A stretch of DNA of 34,949 nucleotides from a virus. Positions 1-24,337 of the stretch are shown piece by piece (the first letter of the stretch is position 1; each line of letters opens with the position of its first letter). A program made the position numbers and the translations under genes. Below the pieces are notes generated by a model. The model had not been told where the DNA came from. It searched no databases and saw only the letters and a list, made by a program, of their open reading frames with translations. The DNA lies in IMG/VR virus record IMGVR_UViG_3300025133_000353, positions 1-34,949 of that record; one strand, given 5' to 3'.

Positions 1-2574
1 CCTAGCCCATATGTCCTATTGCCGGGAGATGAATTAATATTAGGCTGCGATGCAGGAATATCTTCTGTCCCGTGTAGTGGAACAAGCCCACTAGCATATC
101 CTGCAGGCGTTCCAGGAGATCACTGCACAGTTAACGTAGTTGATGGATGGGGGTTTCCGAATACACATTTGTTAAACCTTCCCGCAGGCCTTCCAACATC
201 AGGATCACTATCTGAAATAAGCGGATCATTCATGGTATTTGAAAAGGGCCCTGCTAAACTAACCTTATTTGGATCAATGATAAGGGATGATAAGGAGAAA
301 CTATTCGAACTCAATCAAAATCTATCATCAGATTCAATTCATGAGGCTCTTCACTTTGATAATCCCGTAGTTGATCAGTTTGACATAGAGAATAGAAAAG
401 AGCTTTCTGACGGATACACATCTGATTATGTTTTAGGCGGAATGTATGGAACATTCTTATTTGATGACTTCCATAAGAATTATACGTTGCTCAATGGCAC
501 ATACTATAGAGAGTCAGACTGCTACGGAGGGATATATCCGTATGGCGACGGCCCATTCGCAAATCAGATTGAAAGGGTTAGAGCAATTGACTTCGCAAAG
601 GGCTCTCATTCAATCTATAATATTATTCAGACAAGGCCCGCAAACAAGACCGGAATATACATAATCCCTATTTTCATTGGTGGTCAGTTCTACTTGATCA
701 ATGCTTGTCAAAAGCTATGGTCCTTCCCGCTCGACGGTAGCAAAATTATAGGAGGGGCAATTCCCGGCAAGATAGAAGCAACATCAGTAATCGGACCGGC
801 GACGATACCGGCTGGATTAGTTTCACCCAGCGGCCCCGAGCACATAGGCGGACTGCCCCTAGACAGACATGGAGTAAAAAGCTGGAATAGTGAAATGCTT
901 AATTCGTCTAAGACGAGTACGATGCTTAGAGCTGTTGTTGCTACTGATTTTAATGAAAGGTATTTTGATACAATAATGCCACAAGTGCAAGACTGGGCAT
1001 CGCGATCAGGATTCATTGTGACAACTGATATAAAGAATAGGCAGCTGGAGATTAAAGACTTCATTAATAAAGAGAAGGGTTGCAGGCTTAATGAGTCAGC
1101 ATCTGCACAGCCAGGTCAAGCCGGCCAGCACACAATGAAAGATTCCTATAAAAAGGCGCTGCCCTATCATCTAATGAATTCAGAAAGACAAACTGAGCAA
1201 AGCTTTCAAATTACAGTGAAGTCTTTTCCAAAAAATGTGGGCTGGACCAGCATGGACGATGAAAGCAGGCTCGATATTACTGATGGATTGCAAAATTGCA
1301 GTGATGAATTTGGGCCAGGTTGGTCAAGAGTAACATGGAATAACTGGGTTGGGTGCCACTCTAACCTTGGGTATCCTGGGAATGTTGCGATGTCATACTG
1401 GTCAGCGTTTAGAAAGATATTAGATGTAAGTACTGAGCAAAAGGCTTGCTACGATGTTTTGTTTAGGAAGGGATATGATATGTCATTTAGAAGATCAGAT
1501 CCTAGTCCCACACAATTGGACAACTTTCCCCTTCTACCTGCTGGAAAGATGGTTAGTTACTATAACTCTGGCGTCTCACCACTTCCTCCCGACCCTGCAA
1601 ACACAGACATATATGTTTATACTCAAGATGTAATAAGATTATTTCACAATATGGGTCCCGGTGCTGCTCATGGATATGCATATGGCATCATGGATACATC
1701 GCCAAAATTCACAACAGCAGTCTACAGACCTGGGAGGTATGGCCAGAATAGGGATATGCTAGAGCAGAGAAAATTTTCTAAGTTCTATATAACACCTACA
1801 ACAACACGAACTATAAACTCTCTAATTCCAACTCTTCAAGCCGTAATAGGATCGGGAGAGCAAGATGCTCCAATTACATGCTATTTTGTAGACTCTGCTG
1901 ATGGAGTCTCAATAGTAGATCCGTATACAACAGATTGCTCTAATATGGACTTAGAAGCATCTTCATCGTGTCCCTTTACAGACGGTCATATTTGTAACAG
2001 ATATGAGCCCAAGCCAGTCTTTATTTTCAATGCAAGAATATCTTGTGTAATAAAGGGCACTCAAATTCAAACAGATTCTGGCGAGATATCAGTCGAAGAT
2101 GTCACCACAGATACTAGAGTTCTAAGCCATGACTTTAGAACATCTGAGATGGGATATTTTGAAGTTCTTGATACATTTTCAAACACAGTAAGCGGATGGT
2201 GCAAGATTAGAACAGAGTCAGGATTTGAATTAAGCTGCTCACTAGATCACCCAATCATGAGCAAGTCAGAAGAAGATCTTTGGGAGCTTAAGGCCGCAGA
2301 TGCATCTCCCGGAGATCACACATGGGTGCTAATCGATGGAGAGCTCAGAGATGATGTTATTAAGTCAGTTGAGATATTTGAAGAATCTGTAGAGGTGTAT
2401 AATATGACTGTGAAGGATGTTCATACATACTTTAGCAATGGTATATTATCTCACAATGCCAACCTGCAGTTGAACACCCAGACAGCCGCAGCGGCAGCTC
2501 GAGATAGTATAAATACAAAAGGCGGCGGGAAACAATCGCCACGGATCCCAATGCCTCCATCATGGGGCATGTAG
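1..2574 (+). CDS. Probable virion protein with C-terminal Hint (intein-like) domain, 5'-partial
   Basis: The reading frame is open to the first base, so the true start lies upstream; the first in-frame start-like codon is a TTG at 19, and residue numbers here count from it. Residues 1-675 are a Cys- and Gly-containing region I do not recognise. Residues 676-813 form a Hint domain: Cys676 opens the block CVIKGTQI, SLDH at 741-744 is a block-B-like motif, and the end (VYNMTVKDVHTYF... then SHN at 811-813) is a classical C-terminal intein block. The residue after Asn813 is Ala, not Cys/Ser/Thr, so it resembles a bacterial intein-like domain that cleaves rather than splices. Only 38 residues follow. 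The neighbouring large structural-type genes suggest a virion component; that role is inferred. Confidence 0.8.
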   Translation, partial: PSPYVLLPGDELILGCDAGISSVPCSGTSPLAYPAGVPGDHCTVNVVDGWGFPNTHLLNLPAGLPTSGSLSEISGSFMVFEKGPAKLTLFGSMIRDDKEKLFELNQNLSSDSIHEALHFDNPVVDQFDIENRKELSDGYTSDYVLGGMYGTFLFDDFHKNYTLLNGTYYRESDCYGGIYPYGDGPFANQIERVRAIDFAKGSHSIYNIIQTRPANKTGIYIIPIFIGGQFYLINACQKLWSFPLDGSKIIGGAIPGKIEATSVIGPATIPAGLVSPSGPEHIGGLPLDRHGVKSWNSEMLNSSKTSTMLRAVVATDFNERYFDTIMPQVQDWASRSGFIVTTDIKNRQLEIKDFINKEKGCRLNESASAQPGQAGQHTMKDSYKKALPYHLMNSERQTEQSFQITVKSFPKNVGWTSMDDESRLDITDGLQNCSDEFGPGWSRVTWNNWVGCHSNLGYPGNVAMSYWSAFRKILDVSTEQKACYDVLFRKGYDMSFRRSDPSPTQLDNFPLLPAGKMVSYYNSGVSPLPPDPANTDIYVYTQDVIRLFHNMGPGAAHGYAYGIMDTSPKFTTAVYRPGRYGQNRDMLEQRKFSKFYITPTTTRTINSLIPTLQAVIGSGEQDAPITCYFVDSADGVSIVDPYTTDCSNMDLEASSSCPFTDGHICNRYEPKPVFIFNARISCVIKGTQIQTDSGEISVEDVTTDTRVLSHDFRTSEMGYFEVLDTFSNTVSGWCKIRTESGFELSCSLDHPIMSKSEEDLWELKAADASPGDHTWVLIDGELRDDVIKSVEIFEESVEVYNMTVKDVHTYFSNGILSHNANLQLNTQTAAAAARDSINTKGGGKQSPRIPMPPSWGM
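2044..2457 (+). other. Hint domain (mini-intein size, no endonuclease)
   Basis: About 138 residues run from a starting Cys to a terminal His-Asn. This is the length of an intein without a homing endonuclease. The N-terminal nucleophile Cys676, a Ser-x-x-His motif (Ser741, His744) and the terminal His812-Asn813 are all present, so the residues for thioester formation and Asn cyclisation look intact. Ala814 at +1 removes the nucleophile needed for normal splicing. Expected chemistry is C-terminal cleavage after Asn813 and/or N-terminal thioester hydrolysis or aminolysis at Cys676. This follows from known Hint biochemistry and is not shown for this protein. Confidence 0.85.
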
Positions 2575-2577
2575 ACA

Positions 2578-4569
2578 ATGGCTATAAAACAAACACTTCG
2601 AAGAGGAAAGCCAACAAAGGGTACAGAGCTATCTGAAGATCTTCTATGCGGGACAGTAGAATTCGAAGTAAAGGATCCCATAACTGGTTGTATAGATCAC
2701 ACAATAACCCCTCACAAGAGGCAGATAGGTCTTGATCACCCCAATTACCAAGCAGATTTAGTTGTCAAAGGCGTAACACTTCCAGAAGGAGGACTCCGGC
2801 TACGAGACGACGGCTACATGAATTTTGGAAAGCTCCAGGGTGACCTTGGAATAGGGCTCAGAGCAGCTGATGATCCACTGAATCCAGGAACTACAACAAT
2901 TCAAGTTAGAGATGAAGGAGGGACATGGGAAAATATCTCAGGAGGCGGCGGATCAATATCTCTGATAAATGATGATATAAATGGGGGAATAAGTGTAACA
3001 AATGGAACAGGCCCAACTACAACATTAAAAATAGATGTAAATGATTTAGTAACACTAGGTGCAACAATTGATACAGGAGACTTTGTTGTTATATACGATT
3101 CAGACACGGCATCAAGCAAGAAGGCACTTGTTAGCAATCTTCCATTCACAAATAATGCAGGCACCGTCACTCCATCATCATCAGATACATTTACAAATAA
3201 ATCTGGAAATATATCACAATGGACAAATGATTCTGGATATACAAGCAATCTAGGAACTGTAACATCAGTCACTGCTGGTGACAACACAATCAATTCAACG
3301 GGTGGTACAGCTCCAGCCCTTAATGTAATTGAGGCAAATCTTACGGGAATTCCAGCCGCAACAGCAATCACTGGCCTTGCAACTGTCGCCACAACAGGTG
3401 CATATTCAGATCTATCAGGCACACCAACAATTCCAACAGATAATAATCAGCTAGCCAACGGTGCAGGTTACACAACAAATACAGGAACGGTAACATCAAT
3501 TGCAATTTCTGGTGCAGATGGAGTTGACATCGACTCTGGATCACCAATAACCACATCTGGCACAATAACTCTTGGTCTATCTAATATACCAAATACCTCT
3601 CTTGCTAACGATTCCATTAATATCGCTGGATTAACAGTCGAATTGGGAGCCGTTAATACACCTATAGATTATTCTGATCTATCAAATCAGCTAACTGGCG
3701 GGAACGGAATAGACATAACGACTGGTACAATCACAGTAGATTTAGCAGCTAATCCCGGTCTTGAATTTTCTAACGGAGAGCTAGTGCTTAAAACCGACGC
3801 CACGCTTAGTGTGGGTGCCGGCGGAGCTTCTGTTGTTAGCACGCCCGGAGCACTAACAGCTGCACTTGGAGGAGGATTTGTCATCGGCGGCGGCGGGTCA
3901 TTTAATGGTTCGGGAGATCTATCGGCGTCTGTTAACTTTGGGGTGACAGCTAACGACGGAACATACACAAATGCAAGCGTTACAGTTTCAGGAAATCAAG
4001 TAACCAATGTGACCTCAGGAGGAGCAGTCGGCGGACCAGAGGAAGCATTTATTAGAGGCTACACAGTAGGAGATTCGACTATTTCTTCCACTACAGCGGG
4101 CGCGGCCCAAGAACTTAAATTCACGACAAAGATGAATACTGGTGCTCCCAACTTTACACCCATCGCAGAGGGGTGTGTGCTTGAAGTCAACCAGGGTAGT
4201 AATATCACACTCGCCGCCACACTTCTGGGCGGTGTGATAACAATAAATAATGCAGGGACATATAAGGTCACAGCAACAATTGATGCTACACATGATAATC
4301 AAAACCAGACTGGCTATAGTACATTTTCAGTCTGGATGTCGCGAACTGACCAGGGAGTACTCGCGGAATTCGCTGCGGGTGGTAACTCTATGATGCCCCA
4401 TGGCTTCCCCTCAATGTTCCAGATAACGGGAATAGCAATATTCACCGGCGGTACTATGTCACTTCATGTCGGTACTACAAATGAGAACTCCGTTAACGAC
4501 AAGCTGACTACTGGCACGCTGGCTACTAATCAATTTGCAGTAACAGTCTCAATTGAAAAGATAGCATAA
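2578..4569 (+). CDS. Tail-fibre-like protein with repeats and C1q-like C-terminal domain
   Basis: A 663-residue protein very rich in Thr, Ser, Gly, Asn and Ile, typical of fibrous phage adhesins. After an N-terminal region that may attach to the virion (about 1-120), degenerate repeats appear. The pattern GYTxNxGTVTS occurs just before residues 226 and 302, and YSDLSGTPTIP and YSDLSNQLTGG are further shared words. Residues of about 515-663 look like a C1q/TNF-type jelly roll, with a strand-rich core around NNAGTYKVTATIDAT and an end of FAVTVSIEKI. The start ATG is three bases after the previous stop. The likely role is host recognition as a trimeric fibre; the receptor is unknown. The C1q-like assignment comes from pattern reading only. 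Confidence 0.7.
   Translation: MAIKQTLRRGKPTKGTELSEDLLCGTVEFEVKDPITGCIDHTITPHKRQIGLDHPNYQADLVVKGVTLPEGGLRLRDDGYMNFGKLQGDLGIGLRAADDPLNPGTTTIQVRDEGGTWENISGGGGSISLINDDINGGISVTNGTGPTTTLKIDVNDLVTLGATIDTGDFVVIYDSDTASSKKALVSNLPFTNNAGTVTPSSSDTFTNKSGNISQWTNDSGYTSNLGTVTSVTAGDNTINSTGGTAPALNVIEANLTGIPAATAITGLATVATTGAYSDLSGTPTIPTDNNQLANGAGYTTNTGTVTSIAISGADGVDIDSGSPITTSGTITLGLSNIPNTSLANDSINIAGLTVELGAVNTPIDYSDLSNQLTGGNGIDITTGTITVDLAANPGLEFSNGELVLKTDATLSVGAGGASVVSTPGALTAALGGGFVIGGGGSFNGSGDLSASVNFGVTANDGTYTNASVTVSGNQVTNVTSGGAVGGPEEAFIRGYTVGDSTISSTTAGAAQELKFTTKMNTGAPNFTPIAEGCVLEVNQGSNITLAATLLGGVITINNAGTYKVTATIDATHDNQNQTGYSTFSVWMSRTDQGVLAEFAAGGNSMMPHGFPSMFQITGIAIFTGGTMSLHVGTTNENSVNDKLTTGTLATNQFAVTVSIEKIA
3190..3580 (+). 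repeat. Degenerate fibre repeats (about 77 residues per unit)
   Basis: Two in-frame copies of the protein pattern [Q]xxNxxGYTxNxGTVTS[VI] lie about 77 codons apart inside the fibre-like gene. The DNA copies have diverged, so this is an old protein-level repeat rather than a recent duplication. Such repeats usually form stacked beta or triple-helical shaft segments. Confidence 0.55.
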
Positions 4570-5773: not shown

Positions 5774-8520
5774 TGAAGATTAAAAAATTAAAAAAGTTTT
5801 CTGTATTATCAAAGCCATTATTTGATGAGTCAATGATAGACAGAATTTATTCTGTAGACGAATCTATTATCGATCCACAGACCCAAGAGCCCAAGATTAT
5901 AAGTGAAGACTATATAGACTACAGATTTTATTTCATGGCAGATCTAAGAAAAGCAATTAATAATGATCTGGGAAGAGTTAGATTTAGCATAAGAAAAGAC
6001 CTTAAGCAGACAAGATATCCATTCTTTAATGATTTAGATAATAAGAATTCAAAAGGCATCGTTGCCGCCTTGTTTGCAAAAAATCGAGATATAGAAGCGC
6101 AGATGTTTACGTCAGATAAGGAAGGTCTTCTCTATAGGAAGAATATTGATCTATTTAAAAACTTTAATAACTTTAAGATAAGAAATGCAAAAAGGTTAAA
6201 TGATAGAGAACTATTTGGAACGATTCTTACAAATAAGATAGTAAATACGAAAAAAATGAAAAATCTAGGAAGTAATCAACAGCTTTCTCAAAAAACCCTA
6301 ACTTCAATTAATAGTGAACTTCTAAACGCTAGATCATTTAGAGGCAATTATGAAAAAGCAGTAAGCCTTGGATTTGATCCCCCTTCGCTCCTTTTTCCAA
6401 CAGACGATGAAACACCTGCAGATCCCAGAAAAAGCGGAACGTTTTATAGAAAGTCAATAACCACCGGTACTCACTTTAAAGATTCGTGTCTGTCAACATT
6501 GAGATATCAAGCCATAGGAACATCAACTAGTGATAATGCCTCTACTGATAAGCAGTCAGTTGCACAGCTTCCCAAAGGATCGTCAGTTGCAGTTACAACA
6601 ATGCAACCAAATAGAGTAAGAATAATTCCAGTAAATGTTACCATGAAGAAGTCTGATTTTGCAGGAAGGAAAAACTTTTTCGTTGTACTTGATGTGATTG
6701 ATAGCAAAGGATTAATTGCGCAAACGCTGGTTATAAAAATAGATCATGAAAAAAATGTCGACGATTACTATGCACCGATATCTGGTGTAGAGTCAAATAT
6801 AACATTTTCGTTTGATTCTAATAAGAAGTCTGCTAGAATATGTCTCAAAAAAGAAGATCCAAATATAGCCGGCTGTGACATCTACATTAGGGAAGTTAGT
6901 GAAACATTTCCCATGCAATCTTCACAGTTCAAAAAGATGAAGAGAGTTCAATTTCGTCAAGGAGGTACAACATACAGTGATTCAATCAGATATCCAGTTA
7001 CAGAAACATTTACCCTGCCCTACGTTGAAGATAAGATGACAATTATGAGAGTCGTGCCAATATCTAAGACAGGCAAAGTTTTTGGAAATTTTTCTTCATC
7101 AGTTAAGAAAAATGGTCCTTTTGTTCCATACAGAGCAGCACTATCAACTTATTGCAATGATGAAGGAATAGTGATAAAGCTCGAGAATGCTTCTTCAAAT
7201 ACGACTGGAGTTGTATTTGAGAGAAGAGATCTCACAATCAAGGAGAGAAATTTTTCTAAAGTTCTTGGACCTCTCGAAGTTGACGAAAACAATCTATCAA
7301 TACAAAACGTAGGAGTCGGTGCTGCATCTTTGAAGTCCAAAGGTGGACGCGGAATTTTTCGAACACTAGACAAATCTGTAAAAGAGGGACACTTATATGA
7401 ATATCGCGCTAGGCTATATTTAAGAGAAGGTGTGACTCGTACATCTATCATGTCAAGATTTGAAACTTTTATTACTCCTATGGAATTTGTTAGTACAGTA
7501 ATGGGAGATATAAAAGTTACACCAGTACAGTCTCCTCCATTAAGAACAGAGGTATCTGGATTGAATTCCTCGATAAATATTTCATTTTCAATTGATTTCA
7601 ATGTAGCTCCAACAGATGCAGATAAAATAATGGAAGCATTGAGTGCTGCTGGGTTATCTAGTTTATACACAGGTGAAATAAACGAGGTCAAATCTAGTTT
7701 ACAAAATCTCATATTTTTTAATATTGAAAGATTTAATACAGAAACAGGAGAGACATTTTATTTGGGTTCATTTCCGCCAGGGAAGACAATAGTAGATGAT
7801 GGAATTACAACAGATGCTCTATGTCCCATAATGGGACAAAGATACATGTATAGAGTCACACCATGCCTAGTTCAACCAGATGTTGCTGTTCAGTCAATAT
7901 CAAGGACAGCAACTAGCAGAACAGAGCCGTCACCAGTACTGGGAAGCACAACTTTTCTTAGAAATCCTTCTACGTATGCAAAATTACGCATTGATTATAA
8001 TCTAGCAGCTCTACAATCAGTTGCAGACAAGGCACAGCTTCAGCTAGATTATATTGATGTAAAGACTTCTAAGAATTTTTCACGAGAATCATTTGAAAGA
8101 GGGACAGTTCCTACATCTAATTCTCTAGCTTCACTAGCTGATTTTTCAACTGGAGACTATATTGACAAGTTTGTCTCTACTGGGTATGAGACAATCAAAG
8201 TTAAAAATGTTAGTGTCTCTATGGGAAAAAGGGCGGGCCCAATAGTTAGATGGAGATCATCAGGGTCAGCTACTTCAAGAAATTTTGTTGATTTTTTTAT
8301 TGTCCTAGTTAAAAAGCAAGGTGAAAAATATATTGCTGGCACATGTCATCGAGTAGTTTCTGATAGTTTTAGATTTGTTGATTTTAGTAATAAAGACTAT
8401 GTAGGAGTAATTGAATATTCAATAAAGCCTGTCTTCCTGGGCGGGAAGACGGGAGAAGAGATATCAGTTGGAACAACGATGATGCTTGATAGAAATACGA
8501 GCTTTAGAAGGGGAAATTAG
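5773..8520 (+). CDS. Large beta-rich probable virion protein
   Basis: A 915-residue protein I do not recognise. The first 210 residues are Lys/Asn-rich and probably helical. From about residue 270 the sequence becomes a series of beta-strand-rich stretches of 90-120 residues with FN3-like or Ig-like rhythm (for example RVRIIPVNVTMKKSDF and MTIMRVVPISKTGKVFG). None is clear enough to name. The start codon shares a base with the stop of the upstream gene (TGATG), and the stop is followed directly by the ATG of the next gene. This tight coupling suggests stoichiometric production with its neighbours. No signal peptide or membrane segment is evident. A tail or baseplate role is inferred from context. 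Confidence 0.75.
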   Translation: MKIKKLKKFSVLSKPLFDESMIDRIYSVDESIIDPQTQEPKIISEDYIDYRFYFMADLRKAINNDLGRVRFSIRKDLKQTRYPFFNDLDNKNSKGIVAALFAKNRDIEAQMFTSDKEGLLYRKNIDLFKNFNNFKIRNAKRLNDRELFGTILTNKIVNTKKMKNLGSNQQLSQKTLTSINSELLNARSFRGNYEKAVSLGFDPPSLLFPTDDETPADPRKSGTFYRKSITTGTHFKDSCLSTLRYQAIGTSTSDNASTDKQSVAQLPKGSSVAVTTMQPNRVRIIPVNVTMKKSDFAGRKNFFVVLDVIDSKGLIAQTLVIKIDHEKNVDDYYAPISGVESNITFSFDSNKKSARICLKKEDPNIAGCDIYIREVSETFPMQSSQFKKMKRVQFRQGGTTYSDSIRYPVTETFTLPYVEDKMTIMRVVPISKTGKVFGNFSSSVKKNGPFVPYRAALSTYCNDEGIVIKLENASSNTTGVVFERRDLTIKERNFSKVLGPLEVDENNLSIQNVGVGAASLKSKGGRGIFRTLDKSVKEGHLYEYRARLYLREGVTRTSIMSRFETFITPMEFVSTVMGDIKVTPVQSPPLRTEVSGLNSSINISFSIDFNVAPTDADKIMEALSAAGLSSLYTGEINEVKSSLQNLIFFNIERFNTETGETFYLGSFPPGKTIVDDGITTDALCPIMGQRYMYRVTPCLVQPDVAVQSISRTATSRTEPSPVLGSTTFLRNPSTYAKLRIDYNLAALQSVADKAQLQLDYIDVKTSKNFSRESFERGTVPTSNSLASLADFSTGDYIDKFVSTGYETIKVKNVSVSMGKRAGPIVRWRSSGSATSRNFVDFFIVLVKKQGEKYIAGTCHRVVSDSFRFVDFSNKDYVGVIEYSIKPVFLGGKTGEEISVGTTMMLDRNTSFRRGN

Positions 8521-21199: not shown

Positions 21200-24100
21200 A
21201 TGAAAATAATACATTTAGCTGATATTCATTGGCGCGGGCTATCTAGGCACGATGAATATCAAGAATCCTTTTCCATGTTTTTTGAGAAAGCCAGAGAGCT
21301 TAACCCAGATGTAATTTATGTCGGTGGTGACATAGTACACAATAAGACGCAGGGTATATCTCCAGAGCTGATAGATAGGCTCTGTTGGTGGTTTAACGGG
21401 TTATCTGATATTGCACCCACACACATAATTCTAGGCAACCATGACGGCCTGGTGCTCAATAAAGACAGACAAGATGCAATATCTCCAATAATTGACGCGC
21501 TTCAAAATGATAACCTTTTTCTGTATAAGGATTCAGGAACCTACCCAGTTAAGGATCATGAAGAGTTCAATTGGTGTGTTTTTTCATGCTTCGATGAGGG
21601 AAGGTGGAAATCAGTCATTCCAGACAAAGACAAGATTAATATAGCTCTATTTCATGGAGCTGTCTGGGGATCTAAAACTGATATTGACTGGAGCATTGAT
21701 GGAGATGTAACGGATGACTTTTTCAATGATTTTGACTTTGCACTCCTGGGAGATATACACAAGAGACAGTTTTTAAATGACGCTAAGACGATGGCATATC
21801 CTGGCTCCACAATTCAACAAAACTATGGTGAAACCACAGGAAAGGGATTCTTATTTTGGGATATTAGATCGTTAGATGATTTTGATGTAGAGTTTCATGA
21901 AATTCCACACATGAAGCCCTTTATAACACTTGACTGGAATGGATCAGTAGATAATATTATTAGCGAGTCATTAAATCATCCAGATGGATCAAGATTTAGA
22001 ATAAGATCGAAAACTGCCCTTATGCAAGCAGACAGTAAGCGACTTCAATACGATCTAAGAAGAGAAAAATTTGCAACAGAAGTAGTATTTAAATCAGAGG
22101 CCTCATTTGATGTATCAAAAATCCAAACAGCGGGCGGATCTCTCAGTAAGGAAAATCTAAGAGAGCCAAACACACACAAGAAGCTAATACGAGAATTTTA
22201 TAGAGATAGTGACATAGCTGATAAGCAATATCAAAAGCTAGATAGGCTAGTTGAGAAATATACATCAAGGATATCAGACGACAACGAGGTATTGAGAAAC
22301 TCTAGGTGGCAAGTTAATTCATTGAGATTTGATAATCTCTTTGCGTATGGCGATGGAAATATTGTTAATTTTGAAAATTTGCCAGGCATAACTGGAATAT
22401 TTGGCAAAAATACAAAAGGAAAGTCTTCCATAATAGGATCATTGATGTATGGTCTATTTAATACAACTGATAGAGGATCAATTAAAAATCTTCACATAAT
22501 CAATAATAGAAAGAATGATTGTAATGCAACAATAGATCTCTCATTAAACGGAGAAAATCTTAGAGTAAGTAGGTCAACTATAAAGCATCAGACGCGAAAG
22601 GGAGATGTGTACGCATCGACATCTCTACAGCTGCATAAGATTTTAAGTGATGGAACAATATCAGAAGACATAACAGAAGAGCAGCGAAGAGTAACAGAAA
22701 ATGTTTTAAGAAGAATGATAGGAACGTCTGAAGATTTTTTAATGACTTCATTGGCATCTCAAGGTGAAATGAATACTTTTATAAAAGAAGGTGCATCGTC
22801 TAGAAAAATGATATTGACAAAATTTCTTGATCTTGGTGTATTTGAAAAGATGTACGATGCAGCAAAGGAAGATTCTTCTGAAATAAGAAATAAGGCCAAG
22901 ACGTATCCTGATATAGATTGGGATGAAGAGATAGATAATTTTCAATTCAATGTAAACGAAAGCTCTGGTGAGTTAAAGAAGATCGAAAGAGAAATATCAA
23001 ATAAAAGGAAAACGCTAAGAGATCTCAATATTCAGCTAGCAACTTCTGATAACCCAGACATTGTAACGAAACACGAAATAGAAGCACGCCAGCGAATCAT
23101 TAAAGATTCACAGGCTGAAATATTTGAAATGATTTCAGCTAGAGACAGCATTCAGAAAAAAATATTCTCAAATGATGAGAAGATACAGAAGATCAACCTT
23201 GTCAAATTAGACTTTCCAATTAATGAGCTGCTAGAGAAGAGAGAATCTCAAAGTGCTATTGAGAGATCACTAGTTGACTTAAAGCATGTGTATGAAAATC
23301 AGAAAAAGGAGCTAGAGAGGCTAGAGGCATCCATTTCTAAGCTTAATGAAGTTCCGTGCGGCGATTCATTTCCCACATGTAAGTTTATTAAAGATTCTCA
23401 TGAAGATAAAGACAGAATATTAAATCAAAGAGATGAAACAAAAAAATCATTAAAATCATTAAAGTCAGCTAAGTCAGCATTATCGTCAATCCTTAGAGAA
23501 TCAATCGATGAAAAAATAGAGAAGTATGATTCGCTAGTGACAAAGGAGTCAGAGATATCACTAGACACCTCTAGTCTTCAAATTGATTTAAATAATTGTG
23601 AAAATCTCTTAAGCTCGTCAGAAGCTGATCTTTTAAAATTGAAAGACGAGCTACTTGATATGATTCCGAGATTGGTGGAGTCAGAAGAAAATCCATCAGC
23701 TGTAATCAGAGCATCAATCGTTTCTTTAGAGGATGATATTAAGAAGCTAGATAGAAAGCGTCTTAGGAAATTTGAAAATATCATCAGCCTCAATGCAGAA
23801 ATATCTAGAATGAAATCAGATAGAAAAGAGTTTGATACCATTAAGCAAGATTTAATAGCATATGATTTTTTTATGCAAGCAACCTCAAAGAAAGGGATTC
23901 CATTACAGATAATGATGTCACAGCTCCCGCTAATCAACTCCGAGATTTCAAAAATTTTGCAAGGAGTGACGGGATTTACAGTTGATCTAGAGGCAGATCC
24001 AGAGTCTAACTCAATGGATATTTACATAAACTATGGTGATAGTAGAAGAATAATTGAGTTAGCATCTGGAATGGAGAAAATGATGGCATCCCTGGCAATC

Positions 24101-24337
24101 AGAGTAGCTCTCATTAATGTCTCTTCTTTAACAAAAACAAACATGCTAATAATAGACGAAGGGTTTGGAGCACTAGATGAGACAAATATAGAAGCATGCA
24201 GTAGATTATTAGAGTCACTTAAGAAATGGTTTAGAAATATAATAGTGATATCTCATGTAGATGCCATTAAAGATGCTGTTGATAATTCACTGGAAATAAC
24301 GAAAAATGAAAAAGATACTAAAGTATACAGCGCATGA
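21200..24337 (+). CDS. Fused SbcD/Mre11-SbcC/Rad50 recombination nuclease (T4 gp47-gp46 equivalents)
   Basis: One uninterrupted 1045-residue chain carries both subunits. Residues 1-365 form the Mre11-type metallophosphatase: D8 and H10 (LADIHW), D44 (GGD), N80-H81-D82 (GNHDG), H152 and H187 (GDIHKRQ). Residues 370-1045 form the Rad50-type ATPase: Walker A GIFGKNTKGKSS (399-410), a long coiled coil with a hook-like turn holding C720 and C727, the signature ELASGMEKMM, and Walker B MLIIDEGFGALDE with D986/E987. The complex should process DNA ends for recombination-dependent replication. In T4 and most bacteria the subunits are separate genes. The hook spacing C-x6-C also departs from the usual C-x2-C. 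Confidence 0.92.
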   Translation: MKIIHLADIHWRGLSRHDEYQESFSMFFEKARELNPDVIYVGGDIVHNKTQGISPELIDRLCWWFNGLSDIAPTHIILGNHDGLVLNKDRQDAISPIIDALQNDNLFLYKDSGTYPVKDHEEFNWCVFSCFDEGRWKSVIPDKDKINIALFHGAVWGSKTDIDWSIDGDVTDDFFNDFDFALLGDIHKRQFLNDAKTMAYPGSTIQQNYGETTGKGFLFWDIRSLDDFDVEFHEIPHMKPFITLDWNGSVDNIISESLNHPDGSRFRIRSKTALMQADSKRLQYDLRREKFATEVVFKSEASFDVSKIQTAGGSLSKENLREPNTHKKLIREFYRDSDIADKQYQKLDRLVEKYTSRISDDNEVLRNSRWQVNSLRFDNLFAYGDGNIVNFENLPGITGIFGKNTKGKSSIIGSLMYGLFNTTDRGSIKNLHIINNRKNDCNATIDLSLNGENLRVSRSTIKHQTRKGDVYASTSLQLHKILSDGTISEDITEEQRRVTENVLRRMIGTSEDFLMTSLASQGEMNTFIKEGASSRKMILTKFLDLGVFEKMYDAAKEDSSEIRNKAKTYPDIDWDEEIDNFQFNVNESSGELKKIEREISNKRKTLRDLNIQLATSDNPDIVTKHEIEARQRIIKDSQAEIFEMISARDSIQKKIFSNDEKIQKINLVKLDFPINELLEKRESQSAIERSLVDLKHVYENQKKELERLEASISKLNEVPCGDSFPTCKFIKDSHEDKDRILNQRDETKKSLKSLKSAKSALSSILRESIDEKIEKYDSLVTKESEISLDTSSLQIDLNNCENLLSSSEADLLKLKDELLDMIPRLVESEENPSAVIRASIVSLEDDIKKLDRKRLRKFENIISLNAEISRMKSDRKEFDTIKQDLIAYDFFMQATSKKGIPLQIMMSQLPLINSEISKILQGVTGFTVDLEADPESNSMDIYINYGDSRRIIELASGMEKMMASLAIRVALINVSSLTKTNMLIIDEGFGALDETNIEACSRLLESLKKWFRNIIVISHVDAIKDAVDNSLEITKNEKDTKVYSA

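Follow-up and report, generated by a model that had tools for sequence, protein, structure and literature searches.

The window, as we call the whole analysed stretch of 34,949 nucleotides from the viral record IMGVR_UViG_3300025133_000353, encodes at 2044-2457 of the plus strand a complete Hint domain of 138 residues, with Cys at position 1, a Ser-x-x-His motif and a terminal His-Asn pair (translated open reading frame, one sequence). By its sequence features, the segment fits an A-type BIL (bacterial intein-like domain). It lies in the variable C-terminal region of a probable virion protein, and we judge it rather probable that it would act there by autocleavage, a minor fraction of the protein perhaps being ligated. 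It is a known kind of domain in a new context, and the host protein, together with a wider set of phage tail proteins, appears to be a little-noticed home for such Hints.

Coordinates and conserved residues of the Hint domain

The features of the region are collected in Table 1, where residues are counted from base 1 of the open frame 1-2574, the true start of which lies outside the window. The Hint-like segment with its Cys, Ser-x-x-His, His-Asn, Ala at +1 and 38 remaining residues, as described in the original prediction, was found in this frame with all its elements. The residue numbers given there (Cys676 and Asn813) had been counted from an in-frame TTG at base 19 and were arbitrary, because the reading frame continues past the left edge of the window; they are corrected here to Cys682 and Asn819. 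The equivalent Cys of the homologue L001 has number 1870 if counting starts at an ATG. The Cys1 column was invariant in alignments A5 and A6, an invariance partly forced by the search patterns. As a separate observation, the G+C content of the tail that follows the Hint domain (2458-2571) was 56%, versus 39% in the Hint domain and 42% in the host part, the tail being too short for conclusions.

Table 1. Features of the host gene, its Hint domain and the genes that follow.
Feature	Position	Strand	Basis
Host ORF: last 857 aa of a probable virion protein of large size; its 5' end is not in the window	1..2574	+	open frame
Host portion (N-part), common to Hint-less relatives	1..2043	+	IMG/VR loci; identities
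Hint domain, A-type BIL-like, 138 aa	2044..2457	+	Pfam, PDB sequence, AlphaFold + Foldseek, phage-Hint profile
Cys682, block A nucleophile (Cys1), codon TGT (TGC in L001)	2044..2046	+	
Block B Ser747-Leu-Asp-His750; canonical form Thr-x-x-His	2239..2250	+	
Blocks F and G, VYNMTVKDVHTYFSNGILSHN, ending in His818-Asn819	2395..2457	+	intein_Cterm TIGR01443 above cut-off
Codons of His818-Asn819	2452..2457	+	
Codon of Ala820, the +1 residue	2458..2460	+	one sequence only; L001 ends inside the domain
C-terminal tail, 38 residues starting with Ala820	2458..2571	+	translation; TAG stop 2572-2574
Next gene, 663 aa, fibre-like by eye only, no family match	2578..4569	+	
Two downstream genes, 386 and 915 aa	4613..8520	+	homologues with conserved order downstream of the host gene in L006, L016, L017, L027, L028

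Assignment to the Hint and BIL families

The segment is a Hint domain, with matches far above chance. The Pfam family PT-HINT (PF07591) matched at 1.9e-9, with 38.4 bits against a cut-off of 27.7 and over positions 2-136 of the 137 of the profile, and Intein_splicing (PF14890) matched at 7.9e-8, slightly under its cut-off. Concerning the NCBIfam models, intein_Cterm (TIGR01443) passed its cut-off of 15.6 with 25.9 bits, while intein_Nterm (TIGR01445) stayed, with 19.4 bits, below its cut-off of 24.5. Among PDB sequences, the BIL domain 2lwy ranked first (1.3e-6), and the RadA intein scored practically the same (1.5e-6). When 33 of the phage Hints surveyed below were made into a profile from which the window sequence was excluded, residues 682-819 aligned with it over its whole length (1-130 of 130) and scored 55 bits.

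The AlphaFold model of the domain, computed with eight aligned sequences as input, reached a moderate mean pLDDT of 63.5 and a pTM of 0.60, the confidence being highest near the Hint start and below 50 in the tail. Foldseek retrieved 65 PDB chains at E <= 0.001, and the best 50 of these 65 were all inteins, BILs or Hedgehog; the first was Tetrahymena BIL2 (6y75, E 1.4e-8, TMt 0.78, 17% identity) and the sixth was the BIL 2lwy (TMt 0.82). The model and these matches display the horseshoe, all-beta Hint fold. Since three independent methods (Pfam, PDB sequence, AlphaFold with Foldseek) agree on the Hint/BIL placement, an outcome that the original prediction had named as a refutation, a profile search placing the segment outside the Hint family, did not occur. 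Close relatives of this particular Hint domain were searched for in IMG/VR, and none was confirmed.

As to the class of Hint, Cys682 and His750 provide the Cys (or Ser) of position 1 and the block B His of A-type BILs, and the length of 138 residues falls within the range of 130-155 given for them (PMC9185962). The combination of a C-terminal His-Asn, here His818-Asn819, with the lack of Cys, Ser or Thr at +1, here Ala820 in a single sequence, is the A-type BIL pattern (PMC4031507; PMC5874633). BILs are located in non-conserved, variable regions (PMC5874633), and the host region is of this sort, as 61 complete, distinct relatives are devoid of Hint and have C-termini that are unalike. The likeness to the Clostridium thermocellum BIL 2lwy extends to size, Cys1, block B His, His-Asn end, absence of a +1 nucleophile and variable location; the differences are that the window Hint has Ser for Thr in block B and is hosted by a probable phage virion protein, with a processing that is predicted only.

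Other classes share part of these features. Tetrahymena BUBL1 BIL2 (6y75, 6tmm) is the best Foldseek match, but it is flanked by ubiquitin-like domains and forms isopeptide bonds (PMC8616854), while no ubiquitin-like domain was found in the window protein. Pretoxin Hint (PF07591) is the best Pfam match and exceeds its cut-off; however, no toxin domain follows the window Hint, there being only 38 residues up to the stop, with no domain match. The class 1 mini-inteins gp41-1, RadA and Spl DnaX resemble the window Hint in fold and motifs, but a class 1 intein has Cys, Ser or Thr at +1 and a conserved insertion site with a precise empty counterpart, whereas here Ala820 occupies +1 and the domain lies in a variable C-terminus for which no reliable tail alignment was obtained. 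B-type BILs, defined by the lack of a His-Asn end, were ruled out by its presence, and a mobile intein with endonuclease was ruled out by the size of just 138 residues.

The host protein, its relatives and its genomic context

Searches of IMG/VR, with the protein and then with alignments, yielded 27 and later 78 loci (overlapping sets), some of them on contigs 280-370 kb long. As 151 relatives were confirmed and 78 loci were kept, the set read does not cover the whole family. The intact ORFs of relatives are of about 930-1900 residues; in the nearest relative, L001, the host protein measures about 2,000. The host part of the window protein is 67-68% identical to L001 and about 23-33% identical to other relatives. 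Among 64 distinct C-termini extracted from the family, 61 reach a stop codon, and these complete relatives extend at most 140 residues past the conserved GQxRDMLE motif, compared to 278 in the window, so there is no room for a Hint domain in any of the 61. Downstream of the SSxPYxDG region their C-termini are unalike. A Hint profile run over all the ORFs of the relatives' loci detected no Hint; as expected, this profile also misses the 21-residue Hint start of L001.

L001 is the one other carrier. Its Hint domain begins with CVIKGTQIHTDLGDIPVEDVT, and then the contig ends inside the domain. Among about 65 distinct family members there are two Hint carriers, one of them incomplete, and a single complete Hint sequence is available. 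Over the first 21 Hint codons, a small sample, the window and L001 differ by seven synonymous and four nonsynonymous changes, with 17 of 21 residues kept; Cys1 itself is conserved through a synonymous change. The tail after the window Hint was also compared with the C-termini of six Hint-less relatives, with one marginal match (L006) and five that were not significant. These tail alignments not being reliable, a precise empty site was discarded and no exact insertion point is claimed.

It is likely, from the gene content around it, that the host protein is a virion protein, because its downstream neighbours are conserved (Table 1), the far end of the window contains terminase, portal, head protease and major head protein genes, and a lectin-like Laminin_G_3 domain occurs near the N-terminus of the relatives L001 and L017. 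Apart from that lectin-like domain, nothing that would identify the host protein came out of searches with PHROGs and Pfam or of tblastn against annotated phages, and no relative of it was found in the GTDB genomes searched. The AlphaFold model of residues 1-681, with 14 aligned sequences, had a mean pLDDT of 31.5. The source is a tailed phage, probably of the jumbo type.

Two side observations belong here. In L007, L014, L018, L021 and L024 the homologue ORF starts at about 6190-6234 while the match begins at 6001, suggesting that in these loci the gene may be split or frameshifted. In the window itself, 21200-24337 (plus strand) encodes a protein of 1045 residues, of which residues 1-188 form a calcineurin-like phosphoesterase domain and the later part contains pieces of an SbcC/RAD50-type ATPase; it is an apparent SbcD-SbcC fusion.

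The +1 residue in other phage Hint domains

Two pattern searches of IMG/VR were used to survey phage Hints. The pattern HTYF-x-NG-xxx-HN gave 47 stretches; in many, which look like inteins, the +1 residue is Cys, Thr or Ser, and in others it is Lys, Gly or Phe and the protein stops 5-16 residues further on. The pattern of four Gly followed by Cys-Phe-x-Ala gave at least 120 stretches, and 62 dereplicated Gly-linker ORFs, from the listed stretches plus earlier loci, matched the Hint profile. In this set the Cys and the Gly were imposed by the search pattern, while the +1 residue was free. A terminal His-Asn or Ser-Asn was present in 50 of the 62 and absent from 12, three of which run off the contig. 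With one exception, the 50 Hints with the terminal Asn motif had at +1 a residue other than Cys, Ser or Thr (49 of 50: 24 Gly, 12 Lys, 4 Ala, others); in the remaining ORFs, mostly from the HN pattern, Cys, Ser or Thr occupied +1 in 27 of 39. The figure of 49 in 50 suggests that a whole class of domains has retained the cutting chemistry in the absence of standard splicing. Inert +1 residues being common in phage Hints of the Gly-linker sort, the Ala of the window is no oddity by itself.

Six of the surveyed Hint proteins were submitted to typing with PHROGs. Four gave matches, L107 and L092 to the central tail fibre J, L091 to tail assembly and L034 to a tail protein, while L055 and L163 had no PHROGs match; all those typed were tail proteins (J, tail assembly, distal tail), and the tail-protein label of the surveyed Hints comes from these four. 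The tail-protein Hints (L034, L055, L091, L107, L152 and others) share with the window the terminal Asn motif and a +1 residue other than Cys, Ser or Thr, and several lie at the very end of the protein, only 4-16 residues from its C-terminus. They differ in the Gly-rich linkers that precede the Hint, as the flanks of the window domain are not Gly-rich and its tail has 38 residues.

Some further cases were recorded. L040, L045, L058, L102, L110, L176 and others have Gly-linker Hints too, in which +1 is Gly, Lys, Ala, Phe or a comparable residue. Gly-linker Hints either close a tail or repeat protein at its C-terminus or lie close to the N-terminal end of a J-like protein. L112, L131, L132, L168, L198 and similar loci contain C-terminal Hint-like segments of about 140 residues that start with CFxAGT and have no His-Asn, and that resemble B-type BILs. 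L030 (Ruminococcus phage NatCom_3870) has three Hint ORFs in 8.4 kb, with Ser or Ala at +1, more than 110 residues after the Hint and a pretoxin-like look. When 50,697 annotated phage records were searched with two Hint queries, all the Hints retrieved were from Vibrio phages, most of them with a helicase annotation; H1, also from annotated phages, was rejected as a parallel, as its Hint is inside a terminase and has Cys at +1, a different situation. In the open-access literature searched, which leaves most subscription journals outside, no paper was found on phage Hints that lack a +1 nucleophile and follow Gly linkers.

Predicted processing and alternative explanations

According to reviews, A-type BILs excise themselves and sometimes join their flanks (PMC4031507; PMC5874633; PMC9185962), and in those tested cleavage products dominate (PMC4031507). 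In the window protein, the Ser681-Cys682 peptide bond would shift to a thioester on Cys682 with the help of His750, and Asn819 would cyclise with the assistance of His818, the resulting cut before Ala820 freeing the tail of 38 residues. With no nucleophile at +1, no branched intermediate would form and the thioester would be mostly hydrolysed. The Hint domain would thereby be released, and the host protein would terminate at Ser681, close to the ends of the Hint-less relatives; a minor fraction might be ligated to the tail. Cleavage is favoured because a product ending at Ser681 would resemble those relatives, which evidently suffice. Against this reading are the small number of carriers in the host family (only two, one of them incomplete), the Ser for Thr in block B, the lack of Gly-rich flanks, the TIGR01445 score under its cut-off and the moderate pLDDT of the model. 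It is worth noting that the original prediction had deduced cleavage or cross-linking from the lack of Cys, Ser or Thr at +1: the cleavage is in agreement with A-type BILs, while ligation without a +1 nucleophile had been left out (PMC4031507). Its proposal of a maturation trigger finds no support, since 61 complete distinct relatives do without the domain.

The serious rival to cleavage, and the main one, is that very ligation, which we consider unlikely as the principal fate of the protein: the freed amino group of Ala820 would attack the Cys682 thioester, and the mature protein would be the host part joined to the 38-residue tail. A-type BILs can ligate their flanks in this way, the freed alpha-amine attacking the thioester (PMC4031507), and the match to the C. 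thermocellum BIL is close. Moreover, the tails of L006 and L017 have a loosely similar TK-GGK end, with a score reached by 1.8% (L006) and 12% (L017) of shuffles. However, the tail similarity is weak, was picked out of a set of six comparisons and does not hold for L016 or the others, and the dominance of cleavage products in tested A-type BILs points the other way.

An inactive or decaying intein relic, persisting as an inert C-terminal extension, seems more improbable still. It would account for the missing +1 nucleophile, for the lack of a homing endonuclease and for the rarity of Hint among the family members, but the remaining residues of the chemistry are all in place in an open reading frame, and L001 keeps Cys1 and most of the adjoining residues with an excess of synonymous over nonsynonymous differences, in 21 codons only. 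The recurrence of the same non-nucleophile pattern in tens of phage Hints of other proteins also counts against decay. The least probable explanation, to which we give very little credence, is acyl transfer, in which a lysine or another amine of a neighbouring virion protein would attack the thioester and the host protein would become covalently attached to that partner. BIL2, the best structural match, does form isopeptide bonds and attaches the ubiquitin-like domain on its N-terminal side to other proteins (PMC8616854), yet no sequence feature of the host protein points to a partner.

Biological significance

The phage Gly-linker Hints constitute a natural set of compact domains for testing nucleophile-free processing or ligation in phage particles. 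It is conceivable, if improbable, that nucleophile-free Hints are widespread acyl-transfer devices of tailed phages, located in proteins of the tail and fibre region, which would cut or covalently couple virion proteins during assembly, the window protein being one instance, from a family in which the domain is rare. If the Hint domain of the window is active, its host would be a virion protein that processes itself, and the end encoded by the gene may be missing from the mature form, with consequences for annotation and proteomics.
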